Source of the DNA: an uncultured Pseudomonadota bacterium
Lineage (GTDB): Bacteria; Pseudomonadota; Gammaproteobacteria; Burkholderiales; Methylophilaceae
Length of the DNA: 48,208 nt
Direction: 5' to 3'
NCBI GenBank assembly: GCA_903846555.1
Contig: CAINBI010000072.1
Span: forward strand, 1 to 48,208
The position numbers and the translations under genes were made by a program. Below the pieces are notes generated by a model. That model was given only the letters and a program-made list of their open reading frames with translations. It made no database searches and was not told the origin of the DNA. Positions 791 to 43,767 of the stretch are shown in pieces. Every line of letters begins with the position of its first letter. Within the stretch, counting starts at the first letter, position 1.

Positions 791-2248
791 TTACATACCG
801 TTAGCATTCTTTAGCCCCTCGGCACCAGCCTGCCAACCACCACCTAGTGCTTTAAATAACGCCACTGTAGCAACCAGTCTCGCTTGACGACTTTGGATAA
901 ACGCCAATGCTGCGTCGTTGTAGACGCGCTGCGTATCTAACACATCCAAGTAAGCGGAATAGCCAGATTGATAACGATTTGTCGATATTTCCAATGCTAT
1001 TGCAGCGGCCTCCTGACTCCTAAGTAGTGCGGCTTCTAGCTCGGTGTACTGCCGAAGGTTAACCAAGGCATCATTTACTTCTCTGAAAGCGTTTTGGATT
1101 GCACCTTCATAGCTCGCAAGTGCCTGTTTTTGTTTAGCGCTGGCTTGGTCAACGCGTGCATTGCGCTTACCTGAATCAAAAATAGGTAAATTCAAGCTCA
1201 ACCCACCCGTCCAAATACGAGCGGCCGATTTCAATATGTCACCTAGCACTAAGCTCTCACCACCTAAATTAGCCGTGAGAGAAATGGTGGGATACAACGC
1301 AGCTTTAGCCACACCAATGTTTGCATTAGCGGCAATCATCAGCTCCTCAGCTTGTCGAATATCTGGTCGTGCTTCTAACAAACTTGAAGGCAAGCCTGCT
1401 GGTGGCGTTGGAGGAATGAGCGTCGATGTAATATTGGTCCGTGCAATATTCAAATCCAGCACACCGGTTAAAACTGCCAATTGATTGACACTTAAAGCTC
1501 TTAAGCGATTCAGTTCTGTCAGTTGCGCGCTCAGATTTGCACTAGCCACAGTGGCTTGCTGTACATCTAAGGCTGAGGCAATGCCGCCCTTCAAGCGGCG
1601 CTGAGTTAGCGCTAAACTGGTGTCACGATTTTTTAGGTTATCCTGAGAAACTGCGATTTGCGAATCTAAACTACGCAATACCAGATAATTACTAGTCACT
1701 AGGCCAGATAGCGATAACGCTATCGTATCTTTTGCATAGCGGGTAGACAAAGCCTGTGCAATTGAAGATTCTTTAGCACGACGCAATTTACCCCAAAAAT
1801 CCAACTCAAATGAAGTCTCTAGCTGAACCTTATAATTACTTTGTGGGTTAGCTGAAGTGATGGAATTAGAACCGGCCTCAGTCACGCGACTATGGCTAGC
1901 CGCAGCGTTTAAATCGACTTGCGGCAACAGTGCTGCGCCCACTTCCTGCATGACGGCATCGGCTTCTTCAATGCGCGCAACGGCGAGTTTAAGGTCTGTA
2001 TTATTTTGTAACGCTTTATCAATCAAATCATTCAGTATTGGATCTTGATATAACATCCACCAAGTGCTGGATACCGCAACTTGAGCCTGACTACCTGCTT
2101 CACTATATTGCGCTGGCAAAGGTAATGGTGGGCGCTGGTAATCTGGTCCTACCGATTTACATCCACTCAATAAAACTACGGCTACCGCCAAGCAAACCAA
2201 CTTTAAGTTAAGGTGTTTGATGTAATGAGAATTTAAGTGCGGCATCAT
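791..2248 (-). CDS. Outer membrane efflux lipoprotein, NodT/OprM family
   Basis: Lipobox LLSGCKSVGPDYQRP; OMF repeats (LDFWGKLRRAKE, ARPDIRQAEELMIAANANIGVAKAALYPTISL). Overlaps the end of the RND gene by 4 bp. Confidence 0.95.
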   Translation of the reverse strand: MMPHLNSHYIKHLNLKLVCLAVAVVLLSGCKSVGPDYQRPPLPLPAQYSEAGSQAQVAVSSTWWMLYQDPILNDLIDKALQNNTDLKLAVARIEEADAVMQEVGAALLPQVDLNAAASHSRVTEAGSNSITSANPQSNYKVQLETSFELDFWGKLRRAKESSIAQALSTRYAKDTIALSLSGLVTSNYLVLRSLDSQIAVSQDNLKNRDTSLALTQRRLKGGIASALDVQQATVASANLSAQLTELNRLRALSVNQLAVLTGVLDLNIARTNITSTLIPPTPPAGLPSSLLEARPDIRQAEELMIAANANIGVAKAALYPTISLTANLGGESLVLGDILKSAARIWTGGLSLNLPIFDSGKRNARVDQASAKQKQALASYEGAIQNAFREVNDALVNLRQYTELEAALLRSQEAAAIALEISTNRYQSGYSAYLDVLDTQRVYNDAALAFIQSRQARLVATVALFKALGGGWQAGAEGLKNANGM

Positions 2249-5200
2249 ACCGTTTCCTTAGGGCTTTGATTGTTTTGTTCTAGTAGGCTGGCGGCATCAT
2301 CAAAAGCTGAGTCATCTACAAGCAGCTCCTCCACAGGCACATCATGGTGCTTTCTATCCACATGCGTATTACTGAGCCAGGTAAAAAACAAGGGGATAAA
2401 TATCGTAGCAACAAAAGTAGCTAATAACATGCCGCCAAATACGCCAGTACCCATGCTCTGACGTGCTGCGGCTCCTGCACCGGTGGCTAATACCAAAGGC
2501 ACAATGCCTAATACAAACGCCATTGAAGTCATGATAATGGGTCTAAATCTCATTCTAGCCGCCTCCAACGCAGCTTGTGCCACGGGCATGCCTGCCTCCA
2601 TTTTCTGGCTAGCAAATTCAACAATCAAAATTGCATTTTTTGCAGCCAAACCCACCAAAGTAATCAAACCGATTTGAAAGTAAATATCATTGGGCATTCC
2701 ACGGAATAGCACTGCCAACAAAGCACCAGCTAAGGCAAACGGTACCGCCATAATTACCGCTAATGGCAAGGCCCAGGTTTCAAACTGTGCTGCCAAAATC
2801 AAAAACACCATAATGATGGCAAAGCCAAATGCAAAAATAGCGGCTGAACCAGTACGTTTTTCTTGATACGCTTGGCCAGTCCAAGCAATTTGATAGCCGT
2901 CTGGTAGGTTTTGTGCAGCAATATCCTCTACCATTTGAATGGTTTCACCTGAGCTGACACCCGACGCACCGCCACCCAACACTTTGGCTGACAATAAGCC
3001 GTTGTAACGCTCCAATTGCTCTGCGCCTACAACATCACTGACTTTACTCAGGGCCGATAGCGGAACCATTTGACCGCCGTTTGAACGCACATAGACTTTG
3101 CCTAAATCATCAGCCTTCATGCGGTACTGTGCCTCGGCCTGCAATTGCACGCGATAGGTACGACCAGATTTATTAAAATCATTTACGTATAACGAGCCCA
3201 TTGTACTTTGCAAGGTTGCGTAAATGTCCGCCACAGGCACGCCTTGAGAGATGGCTTTAGCTTCATCGACTTCAACAAATAACTGCGGCACAGTGGGGCG
3301 GAAGAAGGTGTTGATACCCGTTAGGCGCTTCTCGCTTTTTAATGCCTCAGTAAAACTATTGACTACTGTAGACAGATGCATGGGGTCAGTATCACTGCGG
3401 CTTTGCACGTACACCTCAAAGCCACCAGAACTGCCTAAGCCACGAATGGCTGGTGGATTAAAGGCAATCGCTATCCCGTCAGGTTGCTGCATACCAATAC
3501 CAAAGAGTTTTTTAACAATATCGCCTGCGGTCGTTTTACGTTCGGCCCAATCTTTTAAGCGAACAAACATAGTCGCGGCACTGGTTTTATTGCCCCCGCC
3601 GATCAAATCAAACCCATTCACCGCAAACTCATGCGCCACAGCAGGATCTTTTGCTATGGCGGAACGCACGGCCTCAGTTGTTTTACTGGTGCGACTCAAG
3701 GTAGCACCATCTGGCATAATCACCGCCGTCACCACATAACCCTGATCTTCCGCAGGTACAAAACTACCCGGCACGCTTCTTAACAACACCACAACCAGTG
3801 CAATAATGGCCGCAAAAACCAAAGTACCCATCAATTTATGATGCAGCGTTAAATTAACCGTACTTGTATAAAGGTTCGTTAACTTTTCAAAGGCACGATT
3901 AAATGGCTTAAAAAATGGAGATTCTTCATGCACTGATTTCAATAAAATGGCACATAAAGCGGGTGTAAGCGTTAACGCAACCACGCCAGAAATAACTACA
4001 GCAACCGCTACAGTGACGGCAAACTGACGGTACATTTCACCCGCAATGCCGCCTAAAAATGCCACTGGCACAAATACAGCACACAGCACCAATACAATAG
4101 CCACAACCGCGCCAGACACTTGCTCCATCGACTTAATGGCCGCTTTCATAGGTGACAATTTCTCTTCTGTCATCAATCTTTCTACGTTTTCCAACACCAC
4201 AATCGCGTCATCCACCACGATACCGATAGAAAGTACCATCGCAAATAAGGTGAGGGTATTGATAGAAAATCCAAAAATCCATAGACCAGCGAAGGTACCT
4301 ATCAGTGAGATAGGCACAGCAATCAATGGAATCAGGGTGGCACGCCAACTTTGCAAGAATAAAAACACCACCAGAACAACCAAGATCATGGCCTCACCTA
4401 GCGTTTTCACCACCTCAGTAATAGAGGACTTGACGAAATCGCTGGTGTCATAAGGCACTTCCCAATCTACGCCAGCGGGAAATCTATGCTTTAATTCAGT
4501 CATCTTTTCTTTAACTGATTTTGCAGTATCAAGGGCATTAGCGCCCGATTGCAAGAAAATAGGAATGCCCACGCCTGGCAAACCATCTAAGGAAGTACGC
4601 ACGTTATAACTTTGTGAACCTAATTCAATGCGTGCGACATCTTTTAGATAAAGCACGCCACGCGGGCCGTCCGCACGAATAACAATGTTGCCAAATTCAC
4701 TAGGCTCAATCAAGCGTCCTTTAGCGGTTACCGTGTAAACAAGTTGCTGACTGGAGGGTGATGGTTCTTGCCCAATTTTACCCGCAGCATACTGTGCATT
4801 CTGTGAGCGAATGGCATTGGCAATATCGGTAGTCGTCACACCAAGCTGAGACATACGATCTGGACGTAACCAAACGCGCATGGAGTAATCTTGCGCACCA
4901 AAAATAGTCGCATCCCCTACGCCTTTAATACGCTTAATGTCATCCAGCACATTCAGCGTGGCGTAGTTGCTTAAAAATAGTGGGTCGTATTTCTTTTGCT
5001 TGTCGGTCAACATGACCACCAGCAAAATGTCATTCGAGCGCTTTTGAACCACTAAGCCAGTGCGGCGCACCTCGTCGGGCAAGCGTGGCAATGCAATGTT
5101 CACGCGATTACTCACGTTAAACGTCGCCTGATTAATATCCGTACCCACTTCAAATGTAGCGGTGATAGTTAAGGTGCCGCTGGAATCTGCGCTAGAGTTA

Positions 5201-5433
5201 AAATATAACAAACCTTCAACCCCGCTCAACTGCTCCTCAATCGGTGCTGCAACCGTTTTAGAAAGCGTATCAGCGCTTGCGCCTGGATAGGTAGCGGTAA
5301 CCAACACTGTCGGCGGAGCAATCTGTGGATATTGTGCAATAGGTAATTTCAGTGCAGCCGCTAGGCCTGCCAGCACAATAATGATGGACAAAACACTGGC
5401 AAAAATAGGCCGAGTAATAAAAAATCTAGTCAT
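2245..5433 (-). CDS. RND (HAE1/AcrB-MexB type) multidrug efflux inner-membrane transporter
   Basis: 1062 aa; [77 protein letters not shown]. Confidence 0.97.
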   Translation of the reverse strand: [1062 protein letters not shown]

Positions 5434-5470
5434 GTTAAATCTCGCTTGAGCTTATTTTTGGTGCTTATTT

Positions 5471-6745
5471 TTATTTAGCAGCGGGCTTATTAGCTGCTAG
5501 CGTTTCGGGCGCCTGACTCGGCGCAGCCCCTAATGCATGTGGCGCCACTGAAGCACCAGGGCGTAACTTGATAATGTTATCAACAATCACTTTTTCTCCC
5601 GCGCTCAGCCCGCTGAGTATCACCCAATTTTTACCCGCCCAATTACCCGCGACTATGGGCTTTATAACCGCTTCATTTTTATCATTAGCCACAAACACAA
5701 ACTTACCTTGATCATTCGTCACGACTGCTGTTTGCGGTACAACAAATACACCATCTTGTTTGCCAGTAGTCACACGAATACGCACAAACTGGCCAGGCAA
5801 TAAGCGTTTATCTTCATTTTCAAATGTTGCACGTAATTGCTGAGTACCCAATTGCGGATCAATACCGCTCGCAGCAAAATTCAACTTTCCTTTTTTGCCG
5901 TATTCTGTGCCATCAGGTAACAACAACGTGACTTCTTCCACATTGGCTGGCGTTAAATGACCGCCCAATTGTGCCAACTCGCTATCAGACATACTGAACC
6001 GTACCCAAATAGGGCTAATTTGACTCACTTTAGTCAGTAAGCTTGTGTTCGCGCTGACTAATGCACCTTCAGAAAACTCAAACCGACCAGCAATGCCTGA
6101 TAAAGGTGAGGTCACCGTGGTGTAAGATAGATTTAACTGCGCTTCACGCACCCCAGCCGCATATTGCGCAAGCCCTGCTCGGGCTAAAGCATGGTCAGAC
6201 ATAGCATTGTCCGACTCACGTTGACTAATGGATTGCGTGGCTAATAAACCATCTAAACGCTTAGATTCGCGTTGAGTTTGCTCAACCCTTGATTCTTGCT
6301 GCGCTAATTGCGCCTTCGCATTTGAAAGTGCAATTTGAAATGGCACAGGGTCAATTAAAAACATCGCCTGCCCAGCTTTAATCGGCGCGCCTTCTTCAAA
6401 CAGTTTTTTAAGTAAAATACCACCCACACGCGGTCTAATCTCAACCTCTTTAGCACCTTCGGTTTGTGCTACTGCTTCTGCGCTAATCGGTACAGTCGTT
6501 GGCTGCAATTCAATCACACTCACTGGCATTGCGGGCATTGCCCCGCCAGCCTGCGCCGCGACATCGTCTTTTTTACCACAGCCCAATAATGCAAGGCTTG
6601 CGATTAAGACTACAGCGGTAAGCTTGGCAGTCATCGCAGGCGGAACGCACTGAAATGTACTTTTTTGTGAATGCGGCTTAAATTGATTGAATGATGTGCT
6701 GAATATCATTGAGACTCCATGTCTTTTGATTGGACTACGCGCCAT
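5471..6745 (-). CDS. RND efflux periplasmic adaptor (membrane fusion protein, AcrA/MexA type)
   Basis: Lipoprotein-like signal (ALLGCGKKD), biotinyl-lipoyl/HlyD architecture (VEIRPRVGGILLKKLFEEGAPIKAGQAMFLIDPVPFQ). The true start may be downstream of 6745. Confidence 0.94.
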   Translation of the reverse strand: MARSPIKRHGVSMIFSTSFNQFKPHSQKSTFQCVPPAMTAKLTAVVLIASLALLGCGKKDDVAAQAGGAMPAMPVSVIELQPTTVPISAEAVAQTEGAKEVEIRPRVGGILLKKLFEEGAPIKAGQAMFLIDPVPFQIALSNAKAQLAQQESRVEQTQRESKRLDGLLATQSISQRESDNAMSDHALARAGLAQYAAGVREAQLNLSYTTVTSPLSGIAGRFEFSEGALVSANTSLLTKVSQISPIWVRFSMSDSELAQLGGHLTPANVEEVTLLLPDGTEYGKKGKLNFAASGIDPQLGTQQLRATFENEDKRLLPGQFVRIRVTTGKQDGVFVVPQTAVVTNDQGKFVFVANDKNEAVIKPIVAGNWAGKNWVILSGLSAGEKVIVDNIIKLRPGASVAPHALGAAPSQAPETLAANKPAAK

Positions 6746-6797
6746 TTAGGCTACGCTAGTGATTGGGCGTTATGTTTAGTGTGCTTAATCAAACTTG

Positions 6798-6850
6798 TTT
6801 ACATGCAAATTTGAATGTATATTATATACAAACAAGAATGTATGTATATA
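6798..6850. promoter_or_regulatory. Candidate AcrR/TtgR-like operator region (two related half-site clusters)
   Basis: TTTACATGCAAATTTGAATGTATATTATATACAAACAAGAATGTATGTATATA. The reverse complement contains TACATACATT-CTTG-TTTGTATATA, resembling the E. coli AcrR operator TACATACATTTGTGAATGTATGTA and the TtgR operator (both from memory). Confidence 0.5.
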
Positions 6851-6938
6851 TGTTTAAAGAAGGCAATCTAAGCCATCTTTGATAGAGTCGATGAGGGCAC
6901 CTTGCACGAAATCCAATACGAGGCATTTTTATTTAAAA

Positions 6939-7111
6939 GAGACCTTTGCACGAGCTAATTTTAACCCTAAAACCCATCAACATCGTCATTCCCGCATAGG
7001 CGGGAATCCAGTTAAGTTGTTGATTCGCCTAGATTCCCGCCTACGCGAGAATGACGATAATTGGCGATTTTATATTAAATTGTGGTTAATTTCGCTTCAT
7101 GCAAAGGTCTC
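6939..7111 (-). repeat. 173-bp MITE-like interspersed element, copy 1 (inverted relative to copies 2 and 3)
   Basis: Perfect 12-bp TIRs GAGACCTTTGCA (6939-6950) and TGCAAAGGTCTC (7100-7111). Internal ATTCCC-N8-GGGAAT palindrome at 6988-7007 and a one-mismatch copy at 7033-7052. The centre is the reverse complement of the centre of copy 2. Confidence 0.88.
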
Positions 7112-7188
7112 TAATAATAACTTCGTGCAAAATCCCCTCATTATTGAAATTTATTTTGATCATTGAATATGCAGGATAGCTAAAATAA

Positions 7189-7806
7189 ATGGTAAGAAAA
7201 ACTAAAGAAAACGCAGAACTTACCCGCCAACGCATTATTGATGCCGCACGCACAGTGTTTTTAGCGCGTGGCGTTAGTCGCTCCACCTTAGAGCATATTG
7301 CAAGCCAAGCGGAAGTGACACGCGGTGCGGTGTATTGGCATTTCAAAAACAAAACAGAATTATTCCACGCAATTCGCGACAAGGTAGTTTTACCACTGAT
7401 AGACCGCATGGATGACACCCTGACCTTAGAAGGTAGCGAAGACCCGCTTACTCAAATTGAAAACAGCCTGTGCGACACTATCAATGAGCTCAACGAGAAT
7501 ATTGAAATGCGTCAGATCTATGAAATTATGATGATTAAATGCGAGTATGTAGATGAGTTTGCAACAGTGCTGCAACAAATTCTCAACAACTGCGCCAATA
7601 TTACCGAAAAAATTCAACTCGCTTACGAGCGCGCACAAACCCAAAACCTGTTAGCTAACGCATATACACCACATGCATTAGCGCTTGATACCCATTTATT
7701 TTTTAGCGGCTTACTGCACATGTGGGTAAAAGATTTTGACGGAAGCAGATTCCGCTTTCAAGCGACAGATTTAATTAAATCACATATCAATTTACGTAGA
7801 AAATAG
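7189..7806 (+). CDS. TetR/AcrR family transcriptional regulator (probable efflux repressor)
   Basis: TetR N-terminal HTH: RQRIIDAARTVFLARGVSRSTLEHIASQAEVTRGAVYWHFKNKTELFHAI; divergent from the RND operon. Confidence 0.95.
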   Translation: MVRKTKENAELTRQRIIDAARTVFLARGVSRSTLEHIASQAEVTRGAVYWHFKNKTELFHAIRDKVVLPLIDRMDDTLTLEGSEDPLTQIENSLCDTINELNENIEMRQIYEIMMIKCEYVDEFATVLQQILNNCANITEKIQLAYERAQTQNLLANAYTPHALALDTHLFFSGLLHMWVKDFDGSRFRFQATDLIKSHINLRRK

Positions 7807-18791: not shown

Positions 18792-18805
18792 ATAATATTT
18801 AATTA

Positions 18806-18978
18806 GAGACCTTTGCACGAAGCTGAATTAGCCGCGATTTAATATAAAACCCCTGATTATCGTCATTCCCGCGTAGGCGGGAATCTAGGCGAATCAACCA
18901 CTTAACTGGATTCCCGCCTACGCGGGAATGACAGTGTAGATAGGTTTTTGGGTTTAAATGCGCTCGTGCAAAGGTCTC
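18806..18978 (+). repeat. 173-bp MITE-like interspersed element, copy 2
   Basis: Perfect 12-bp TIRs GAGACCTTTGCA (18806-18817) and TGCAAAGGTCTC (18967-18978). Two internal perfect ATTCCC-N8-GGGAAT palindromes (GCGTAGGC and GCCTACGC spacers). Same length as copy 1. Confidence 0.9.
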
Positions 18979-19033
18979 AATTAAAATTTAATCGATCAAT
19001 ATAACGCTAGAATCTTTAAGGTGAAAATATCAA

Positions 19034-26807: not shown

Positions 26808-27086
26808 ATGGGTGGCAGGAATATAATGTTTGTTGATGATAGCGATTACCGTCATTTTTAACTTGCTTGCAAAACGCCGATGAGCAATATAGCGGTTGAA
26901 TAGATGATGATGTACTGCATGACTATGCATGAGCAAAATACCCTCGCTAAATCATGCCACTTGCTGATTTGACCTTATGTGCAAAATTTTAATGATTTGC
27001 ATCAGCACACAGGTCTTCTGTGAGAAGGGCGTTTTAAGTCTGCTTATTCGTGTTAAGGGGGCGCTGATTTATTCACCCGTGAATCA

Positions 27087-29087
27087 TCAAGCTTTTTTTG
27101 GCGGCATTATAAACTCAGCAGGATGCTGATTCAGCCGATTGGCAAGATTACTGAGCAATAATCGCCATTGCTTAAAGCGTACTTTGCGCGATTTCATGGC
27201 TACATATAGGGCTAGGCTAAAACTTACGACTAGATTCACGCAGCCGATAAGCACAAGACCTGACGCGGCAAACGCTAAGGCCTGCCAACTCAACATAAAG
27301 TCTAAACCGACCACAGAAAACCCGACAAAAGCCGAGGAAAAGGCGATGTGCCTAATATCAATCGGTAAGCCAAACAACACCCCTATTGCCGCCATAGCAG
27401 CCAACAGGCAACCGAAATAGAAATTACCAGCTAGCGCACCTAGGTTATTTTCAACGTAATTCGCAACACGGTCTAATCGCGCAAAGCCTAATAATTTCTG
27501 TAGCCATGTAAGCGCCCGTAATCGCTGTGGAATTTTGTGATACACGGCTAAATTATCGTGGTAGCCGGCAATTAAGCCAGAAATAAATAAGCAAACGCCG
27601 GCAATGGCTGCATAAAATAAAGCGCCGCTATGTATCGGGTCTATGTCTGCCAATAATTGATGGGCTTTTTCTGGGCTCACAAAATGCTGTCCACTTGCGG
27701 TAAATATCCCCCAAGCAATCAGCATCGCGATGGGAATAGCCAATACCACGTTACCAAAAATGGCAATGATTTGGCTGCGCATGGTGTTGGCTATCATGGC
27801 AACCAAGTTATCCATTTCTTTAGATTTACCATCAGCCGCATCAATACTGGCCGCTATCGCAGCGGCGGTCATAGCAGGTTGTTTAGTGGCAACCGTAAAG
27901 TGCAGAATATGAATCAGAATAAACCCAAGGCCATAATTCAGACTAAATAACAGTGCTTCTGTTAGCGGCGCTAAATGGTGCTTGGCGACAAATATTTTAA
28001 GCGTTGCCATCATGGCCACAACCACCCCAGCACCCATTGCTGAGCGCATTAAAGCATAGTATTCATGGCGATTATTAGTAATGTAATGCTCGCCTGTGCG
28101 GCTCGCATTTTCCGTCACACGTAGCGCCATAATCTCCATGTTTTCTTGCCAATGCTGATGCACATCATTTTTATGGCATTCGCTATAGACTAACTCTTTG
28201 AACAAGCGCACGATTTGACAGTACAGTGCTTCAACATGCACAACTTTTTCGCTATTGCGCAAGTAATCAAAAATACACAGCAAGGTTTCTAAACGAGCAA
28301 TTTGCCGCGACATGCGTTGCAACAAAAATGTGAGTTGGATGCTGGTGCCAACCTGTCCGCTATTCCGACGAATTTTAGCAATGATGGTATTACATTGACT
28401 AAGCATGACCAATATAGGTTTGATGTCGCCTTGATTAGCGTTATTCGTAAGATTATTGACTGACGACAAAAACTCGGCCAATTCAGTTTGCTGCGTCATA
28501 AAAGGCGATGTATGTTGTTCAAGTTCAGGGTGATTACGTAGCAATTCTGGCTCTAAGCCTAATGCGGCAATGCGATATGACAGCACTTGTGTGGCTGCCA
28601 ACAAGTTTTGGCGGCACGGTTCGGTGATATTTTCAGGCGCTTCTTCAAAATGCATGGCCACAATCAGTTGCGACCAAACATCATCTGGCACGGCCGAAAT
28701 CCAAATCTCATCACTAGTTTTGCTGAAAAAAAGCGCAAATAAGTCGATTAAATAGGCAGTATCAATGGCTTCAGGTAAAAATTTATGCGAGATTCTACGC
28801 CGCATCTCTGTAAAAAATCCAGCAAATGCAGAATGGCGCGCCACTAAAAATAAGGAGATGGGTTTGTGTTCGCTTAACAGTCGTAATATGGCATCGCGCA
28901 ACTGTTTTGCTTTTTCGGGATCGCTATTCAGCAAATAACAAAGCGCTTGAATCGCATTAACGGCGGCTTCTGTTTGGTGAGGCTTTGGCGGTCTTATTTC
29001 AGCCATTAAGTTTGCTATAAAAGTAACCGTCAACTGCGGTTCGCGCTGCGAATTTTTCGCATATTGCTCAAATACCTGCTCTAGCAT
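27087..29087 (-). CDS. SpecificRecomb (PF10136, 'site-specific recombinase Gcr') family membrane protein
   Basis: 666 aa with soluble N-terminal half and multiple TM helices in the C-terminal half; LSEHKPISLFLVARHSAFAGFFTEMRRRISHKFLPEA; SLNYGLGFILIHILHFTVATKQPAMTAA. Confidence 0.85.
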   Translation of the reverse strand: MLEQVFEQYAKNSQREPQLTVTFIANLMAEIRPPKPHQTEAAVNAIQALCYLLNSDPEKAKQLRDAILRLLSEHKPISLFLVARHSAFAGFFTEMRRRISHKFLPEAIDTAYLIDLFALFFSKTSDEIWISAVPDDVWSQLIVAMHFEEAPENITEPCRQNLLAATQVLSYRIAALGLEPELLRNHPELEQHTSPFMTQQTELAEFLSSVNNLTNNANQGDIKPILVMLSQCNTIIAKIRRNSGQVGTSIQLTFLLQRMSRQIARLETLLCIFDYLRNSEKVVHVEALYCQIVRLFKELVYSECHKNDVHQHWQENMEIMALRVTENASRTGEHYITNNRHEYYALMRSAMGAGVVVAMMATLKIFVAKHHLAPLTEALLFSLNYGLGFILIHILHFTVATKQPAMTAAAIAASIDAADGKSKEMDNLVAMIANTMRSQIIAIFGNVVLAIPIAMLIAWGIFTASGQHFVSPEKAHQLLADIDPIHSGALFYAAIAGVCLFISGLIAGYHDNLAVYHKIPQRLRALTWLQKLLGFARLDRVANYVENNLGALAGNFYFGCLLAAMAAIGVLFGLPIDIRHIAFSSAFVGFSVVGLDFMLSWQALAFAASGLVLIGCVNLVVSFSLALYVAMKSRKVRFKQWRLLLSNLANRLNQHPAEFIMPPKKA

Positions 29088-29151
29088 TTTTGCACTTTGT
29101 GATTCACATTTTTCATACTAGCGTTAACCCCATCTATGGAAAGTTTACTGA

Positions 29152-29321
29152 GAGACCTTTGCACGAAGCTAAATTATCTGCAATTTAATATAAAACCCCA
29201 ATTCTCGTCATTCCCGCGTAGGCGGGAATCCATTTCAATCAACTACTTAACTGGATCCCCGCCTACGCGAGGATGACGAATTTGTTAGATTTTAGGGCTA
29301 ATGTTGCCTAGTGCAAAGCTC
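29152..29321 (+). repeat. MITE-like interspersed element, copy 3 (about 170 bp, degraded right end)
   Basis: Left TIR GAGACCTTTGCACGAAGCTAAATTAT...; internal ATTCCCGCGTAGGCGGGAAT and a degenerate ATCCCCGCCTACGCGAGGAT; right end TGCAAAG-CTC lacks 2 nt of the TIR. Confidence 0.85.
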
Positions 29322-29518
29322 ACACTGACTGTCATTTTATGTAAAAAGTGATGCGGATAAACTAATCTACCCTTGATATTGAATGGTGAATTTTTGCCTT
29401 TTTTCAAGCCTACGATTAAAATATTGCTAACGGGGAATGTTAAGAAATAATGGTATTTTTAAAACAGCTTTTTAAGACCAAACCGCCTGCCCATGAAGAG
29501 CAGGCGAATCTTAAAGCT

Positions 29519-43659: not shown

Positions 43660-43767
43660 CGTCATTCCCGCGAAAGCGGGAATCTAGGCAAACGTCAATT
43701 TTAATAATTCTAACTTACATTCATTAAAATTAATCTGAACTGGATTCCCGCCTTCGCGGGAATGACG
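43660..43767. repeat. Core-only relative of the interspersed element (paired dRS3-like palindromes, no TIRs)
   Basis: CGTCATTCCCGCGAAAGCGGGAATC ... GATTCCCGCCTTCGCGGGAATGACG; palindromes 43664-43683 and 43744-43763; GAGACC TIRs absent. Confidence 0.85.

Follow-up and report, generated by a model that had tools for sequence, protein, structure and literature searches.

The CGTC-1 REPs have a CGTC head, an 8-bp stem starting with AT, a 4-nt loop and a CCA or CTA tail, and they are arranged as head-to-head dimers (PMC3733652). The class includes the neisserial dRS3 repeats, several hundred of which are present in meningococci, and these are among the CGTC REPs reported to lack a dedicated transposase (PMC3733652). 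In the 2013 report, the CGTC repeats were not associated with transposase genes, a dedicated transposase was lacking, and mobilization by other transposases was left to future work (PMC3733652).

Two described MITEs bear on the locus presented here. The BrickBuilt MITE of Porphyromonas gingivalis shares with it the IS5-type ends GAGACCTTTGCA/TGCAAAGGTCTC, which are identical in BrickBuilt_4 (PMC4596501). The ATR of N. meningitidis is an AT-rich repeat that has been proposed, as cited in PMC4596501, to be a MITE of ISNme1 (IS1106).

Structure of the elements in the window

The window, that is, the whole stretch of 48,208 nucleotides that was analysed, forms a single contig of a draft genome (G000) of 2.58 Mb in 170 contigs. 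It contains three copies of a short element with TIRs and no gene inside, and all three are intergenic, as originally predicted. Copy 1 (6939–7111, minus strand) and copy 2 (18806–18978, plus strand) are both 173 bp long, and the perfect 12-bp inverted ends claimed for them (GAGACCTTTGCA/TGCAAAGGTCTC) are indeed present. In copy 2 the perfect inverted ends reach 15 bp (GAGACCTTTGCACGA/TCGTGCAAAGGTCTC), with the left TIR, GAGACCTTTGCACGA, at 18806–18820 (plus strand) and the right TIR, its inverted form, at 18964–18978 (minus strand). This copy is flanked by the 5-bp target duplication AATTA, located at 18801–18805 on the left and 18979–18983 on the right. Copy 1 has no target duplication, and BLAST reproduces its reported inversion relative to copies 2 and 3. 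Copy 3 (plus strand) is more diverged, with TGCAAAGCTCAC as its right TIR, and is an older copy. It had been placed at 29152–29321. The start of this interval stands, but the true end is 2 bp further, at 29323, because a perfect ACTGA duplication (29147–29151 and 29324–29328) flanks 29152–29323, giving a length of 172 bp.

Each copy carries two 20-bp palindromes of the form ATTCCC-N8-GGGAAT, arranged as an inverted pair and in some cases with substitutions. The dRS3 (NIME) pattern ATTCCC(N8)GGGAAT recognized in the original prediction is present. These palindromes belong to the CGTC-1 REPs, which extend far beyond the dRS3 of Neisseria. They have a CGTC or TGTC head, an 8-bp stem beginning with AT, a 4-nt loop and a CCA-like tail, and form head-to-head dimers. 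The first unit of copy 2 (18861–18888, plus strand), with its head pointing outward, consists of CGTC, the 8-bp stem ATTCCCGC/GCGGGAAT, a 4-nt loop and a CTA tail, in agreement with the published definition (PMC3733652). Its head-to-head partner (18906–18933, minus strand) has a TGTC head. The corresponding units are located at 6984–7011 (plus) and 7029–7056 (minus, one stem substitution) in copy 1, and at 29206–29233 (plus) and 29251–29278 (minus, stem changed to CGTCATCCTCGC..GCGGGGAT) in copy 3. Arrays of the dRS3 type, intergenic and with flanking RS elements, were not found in the window, which has single dimers inside TIRs instead. In addition, a bare head-to-head CGTC-1 REP dimer is located at 43660–43767 (plus strand). 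Its spacer is longer, and TIRs are not recognizable around it.

Because of the paired palindromes, the whole unit could form a single long hairpin, as had been suggested for the core. For a single strand of copy 2, such a hairpin is predicted with an energy of −94.8 kcal/mol and a z score of −11.5 as RNA, and with a z score of −11.7 as DNA. This hairpin may favor transposition, may reduce harm to the transcripts nearby or may be carried along without a role. An Rfam search gave no match at the elements, and scans for promoters and terminators in the intergenic regions around copies 1 and 2 gave nothing within either element. Copy 1 is located in the region (6746–7188) from which an RND efflux operon (791–6745, minus strand) and a gene for a TetR repressor of the AcrR/MtrR type (7189–7806) diverge. 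This placement is reminiscent of the Correia element mentioned in PMC2267715 at the meningococcal mtrCDE efflux genes.

Copies in the genome, target duplications and an empty site

A BLAST search of the draft genome gives 79 pieces at E ≤ 0.001, so the repeats in the window are not due to chance. About 18–20 of the pieces are full or nearly full copies, in line with the predicted abundance, and the others are fragments. The copies are dispersed in both orientations, and they are most conserved at the ends and in the REP core. The most similar pairs have 98.8% identity, which suggests recent activity.

The target duplications were not part of the original prediction. An exact duplication of 5 bp borders 12 of the 18 two-ended copies of this genome that have CGTC-like heads at both ends, as compared to 0.7 expected and to no more than 4 in any of 1000 permutations. 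These duplications vary in sequence and are rich in A+T, and their length is fixed at 5 bp. With all loci taken together, the duplication is found in 61/105, as compared to 8.2 expected (maximum 16).

The empty-site test covered the 18806 copy alone. The expected empty site is found in all 23 congeners that have both flanks, with no trace of a TIR or REP. The intergenic region holding copy 2 is 242 bp here, in comparison to 15–162 bp in these 23 congeners. In the closest relative the site has 63 bp, as compared to the 64 bp predicted by removing the element and one duplication.

Variants of the element are also observed in this genome. In one copy (L015, positions 359–529, contig C119), the spacer that separates the two REPs runs opposite to the arms, as though recombination of the paired palindromes with each other had turned the core over. 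Three 103-bp elements (L245, L246 and L247, on contigs C22, C41 and C42) have GAGAGCTTTGCA ends, and their core has collapsed to CGTCGGGATGACG, with 5-bp duplications in C22 and C41. A 76-bp element on contig C40 was examined as a candidate empty shell but was dismissed, as it consists of one arm in inverted duplication.

An IS5-family element with the same end

The full-length IS with matching TIRs that had been anticipated is found in a congener (G041). This locus, L090, is an intact 1303-bp element of the IS5 family. Its transposase, of 329 amino acids, matches NF033581 (IS5) with 265 bits, above the cut-off of 140. The ends of the element are GAGACCTTTGCACGA and GAGACTTTTGCACGA, and its flanks (TAATT/TAATT) form a 5-bp duplication. 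The 15-bp TIR of the MITE, including the left TIR of copy 2, is identical to one of these ends, and the length of the duplication agrees as well. Past about 15–18 bp, the arms of the MITE are unlike the L090 ends.

The original prediction that an IS5-like transposase is missing from the window extends to the whole draft assembly, in which we found neither an IS with these ends nor a relative of the L090 transposase. The DDE_Tnp_1 loci of this genome do not have these ends. The mobilizing enzyme of this lineage is therefore a putative one, and it may have been lost or may be located in an assembly gap. A search of phages and plasmids gave no carrier of the full element, and the matches were to the core only.

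The many copies, the target duplications, the empty site and the IS with the same end in a sister genome together point to an IS5-derived MITE that is moved in trans. We consider it very probable (about 0.87) that the three elements in the window are copies of such a non-autonomous IS5-family MITE and that the CGTC-1 dimer is copied with it. The mobilization in trans by an IS5-like transposase that was originally proposed thus gains support, at the level of sequence comparison, from the copies, the empty site and L090. An IS5-family transposase, from an element now absent or unassembled here, would act in trans and bind the TIRs. It would cut the unit out or copy it, and the unit would be joined to its target by a 5-bp staggered cut. 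The central head-to-head CGTC-1 dimer would be copied along with the shell. Against this explanation stand the assembly without a parent IS, the divergence of the arms from L090, and copy 1 with no duplication.

CGTC-1 units and the same design in other genomes

In the draft genome, 42 of the 68 CGTC-1 units have a TIR upstream at the expected place (up to 3 mismatches), as compared to about 3% of random positions. The remaining units are shell-less dimers or singles, or have a TIR that is too decayed or cut off. Several shell-less CGTC dimers are known here, at C72:43660 (the bare dimer of the window), in C167, C3 and C101, and at C92:45806. RAYT/Y1 transposases were considered as the movers of the CGTC units and rejected: the genome has eight Y1 loci, none of them near a CGTC-1 unit.

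Named genomes were scanned for the TIR followed by CGTCATTC. The matches are mostly in Neisseria dentiae, N. weixii, another Neisseria and Methylophilaceae (including Methylotenera). Since the latter have elements identical to those of the congeners, the draft genome is probably that of a Methylotenera-like member of the family. As about 15 chance matches are expected by our estimate, isolated matches in other phyla were not used. The design is abundant in N. weixii and N. dentiae. The neisserial elements are 195–198 bp long, with GAGACCTTTGCAAAA ends and 5-bp duplications that are often AGGCC. The distance from the TIR to the REP head is mostly 45–49 or 55–57 bp in both clades.

When units were sought by the REP sequence alone in the complete genome of N. 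weixii, 33/44 had a TIR with up to 2 mismatches, a fraction that is not a rate for the genus, since this species was picked because of its matches. Most CGTC-1 REPs of the draft genome and of N. weixii appear to have spread by MITE carriage. A search with transposase queries gave 13 IS5-family transposase loci in N. weixii, with GAGACCTTTGCAAAA-type ends 1.14–1.25 kb apart and 5-bp duplications in 7 of them. One of the transposases (L328) passes the same IS5 model as that of L090. Two dRS3 loci checked in N. gonorrhoeae have no TIR. Together with the shell-less dimers described above, they indicate that these REPs also exist outside MITEs.

At the neisserial loci (L094–L201 and L298–L343), the DNA uptake sequence is a frequent insertion site of the MITE and IS copies. 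Here 24/37 duplications are AGGCC/GGCCT, and the uptake core is located within 15 bp of an end in 29/66 elements. Two PLSDB entries labelled as N. gonorrhoeae plasmids (NZ_CP119142.1 and NZ_CP119140.1) have the size of a chromosome, 2.17 Mb, and are probably misfiled.

Several cores and several shells

Two further observations go beyond the original prediction, namely the presence of other CGTC-REP types inside the same TIRs and the presence of the REP dimer in other shells. Within the TIRs of the window elements (shell A), other cores with a CGTC head are present as well: CGTCATTCCGGC and CGTCATACTCGG in Neisseria, CGTCATTCTGAG in the draft genome (L048 and L053), and TGTCATTTCGAA in a congener.

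Conversely, the CGTC-1 dimer of the draft genome is also found inside an IS5-like shell B, which has GGAAGCGCTGATTTATT-type ends and 4-bp duplications of the YTAR type. This family (L248–L262, on contigs C77, C167, C68, C56, C151, C46, C29 and C90) mostly carries the CGTTCGCCCTGAGCTTGTCGAAGG palindrome pair, and has the CGTC-1 dimer twice. The duplications at these two dimers are TTAG in C90 and TTAA/CTAA, an imperfect one, in C29. At L262 (536–664, contig C46), the loop of a shell-A MITE has received a shell-B MITE, which used CTAG as its target and has this sequence on either side. This nesting fixes the order of the two events. In the window itself, a solitary end of the shell-B type (GGGGGCGCTGATTTATT) is located at 27057–27073, just past the 3′ end of the gene at 27087–29087. 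We did not find a partner for this end. In Cupriavidus, the CGTC-1 dimer is in a unit of 128–129 bp with GGTAATGCCGTTCAGT ends, which match the ends at IS4-family transposase features on plasmids of the Burkholderia group.

Alternative explanations

The strong hairpin folding, the intergenic location and the position of copy 1 between the efflux operon and its repressor gene would be consistent with regulatory or RNA elements that are conserved at fixed sites and are not mobile. However, the 18806 site is empty in 23/23 relatives, with no conserved orthologous copies at the site tested, and the elements have target duplications and occur in both orientations, which makes a fixed regulatory function highly improbable. 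The order of events could also be the opposite, with the REPs present first, IS5-type elements preferring them as targets, and the pattern being the debris of insertion. A type 2 association of ISNm1106 (IS1106) of N. meningitidis with REPs has been described (PMC1525189) and favors such a preference. Yet the topology is reversed here, as the REPs are within the TIRs and the duplications outside the TIRs do not have the sequence of a REP. We regard this order as very unlikely.

It is also conceivable that the CGTC-REP dimer is itself mobile and was inserted into pre-existing, nearly palindromic MITEs, so that the TIRs mark only a landing pad. REP dimers are lodged inside palindromes in Anabaena variabilis and Halothiobacillus neapolitanus (PMC3733652). 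In the draft genome the same dimer is found in shell A, in shell B with its GGAAGCGCTGATTTATT ends and bare, and in Cupriavidus it is in a shell with IS4-type ends; all of this would agree with a mobile dimer. In contrast, both the duplications and the empty site coincide with the outer borders of the complete unit, which indicates that in these copies the shell and the core were moved as one. Moreover, the length of the element and the spacing of its arms are fixed, and no empty shell clearly matching the state before insertion was found. A mobile dimer can be true of the origin of the element, not of its present spread, and as an account of these copies we hold it to be unlikely. A broader reading is that the CGTC-REP dimers are modular passengers, loaded repeatedly by a transfer process of their own into the MITE shells of unrelated IS: the IS5-type shell A (5-bp duplication), the IS5-like shell B (4-bp YTAR duplication) and the shell with IS4-type ends in Cupriavidus. 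Shell A would in turn take CGTCATTCCCGC, CGTCATTCCGGC, CGTCATTCTGAG, CGTCATACTCGG and other REP types. The CGTC-1 dimers of H. neapolitanus, all of which are inside 41-bp palindromes (PMC3733652), are a published parallel. We put this forward tentatively, as a possibility. If true, it would explain the wide spread of a REP class that has no dedicated transposase.

Comparison with known systems

The IS5-derived MITE with a co-copied REP dimer, as we read the elements in the window, offers a possible route for copying CGTC REPs around genomes. In the 2013 study (PMC3733652), the CGTC-1 REPs had no association with transposases. In comparison, most dimers of the draft genome are inside IS5-type TIRs with duplications. 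That most CGTC REPs are found inside IS5-type shells with duplications, in genomes from two families of bacteria, provides a concrete, testable carrier. It would also mean that some catalogued REPs are the conserved centers of decayed MITEs. The recurrence of CGTC REPs in the shells of different IS suggests a mix-and-match system of small palindromes and MITEs.

Other small palindromic elements share part of this design. The Correia elements (NEMIS/CREE) are also small palindromic MITEs of Neisseria, of about 100–155 bp, but they have different ends of their own and a TA target duplication instead of the 5-bp duplications here. The REPINs and GTAG REPs, which are mobilized by RAYTs, are head-to-head REP dimers as well. 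However, the elements here have neither a GTAG tag nor a RAYT neighborhood.

In a literature search for the TIR string, BrickBuilt was the sole relevant MITE, and a search with sparse coverage of subscription journals gave no earlier account of IS5 MITEs with CGTC-REP dimers inside them. Like the element in the window, BrickBuilt has no transposase, is intergenic and has a trapped repeat as its core (PMC4596501). This core is a 23-bp minisatellite and the duplications are irregular, whereas here the core is a CGTC-REP dimer and the duplications are consistently 5 bp. The ATR is a MITE of about 183 bp with ISNme1-like TIRs, GAGACCTTTGCAAAA (cited in PMC4596501), and, going by that description alone, is not described with a CGTC-REP/dRS3 dimer. 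As a type, the element is known, near BrickBuilt and ATR, and the novelty lies in the recurrent association of CGTC-REP dimers with MITE shells that are unrelated to each other.
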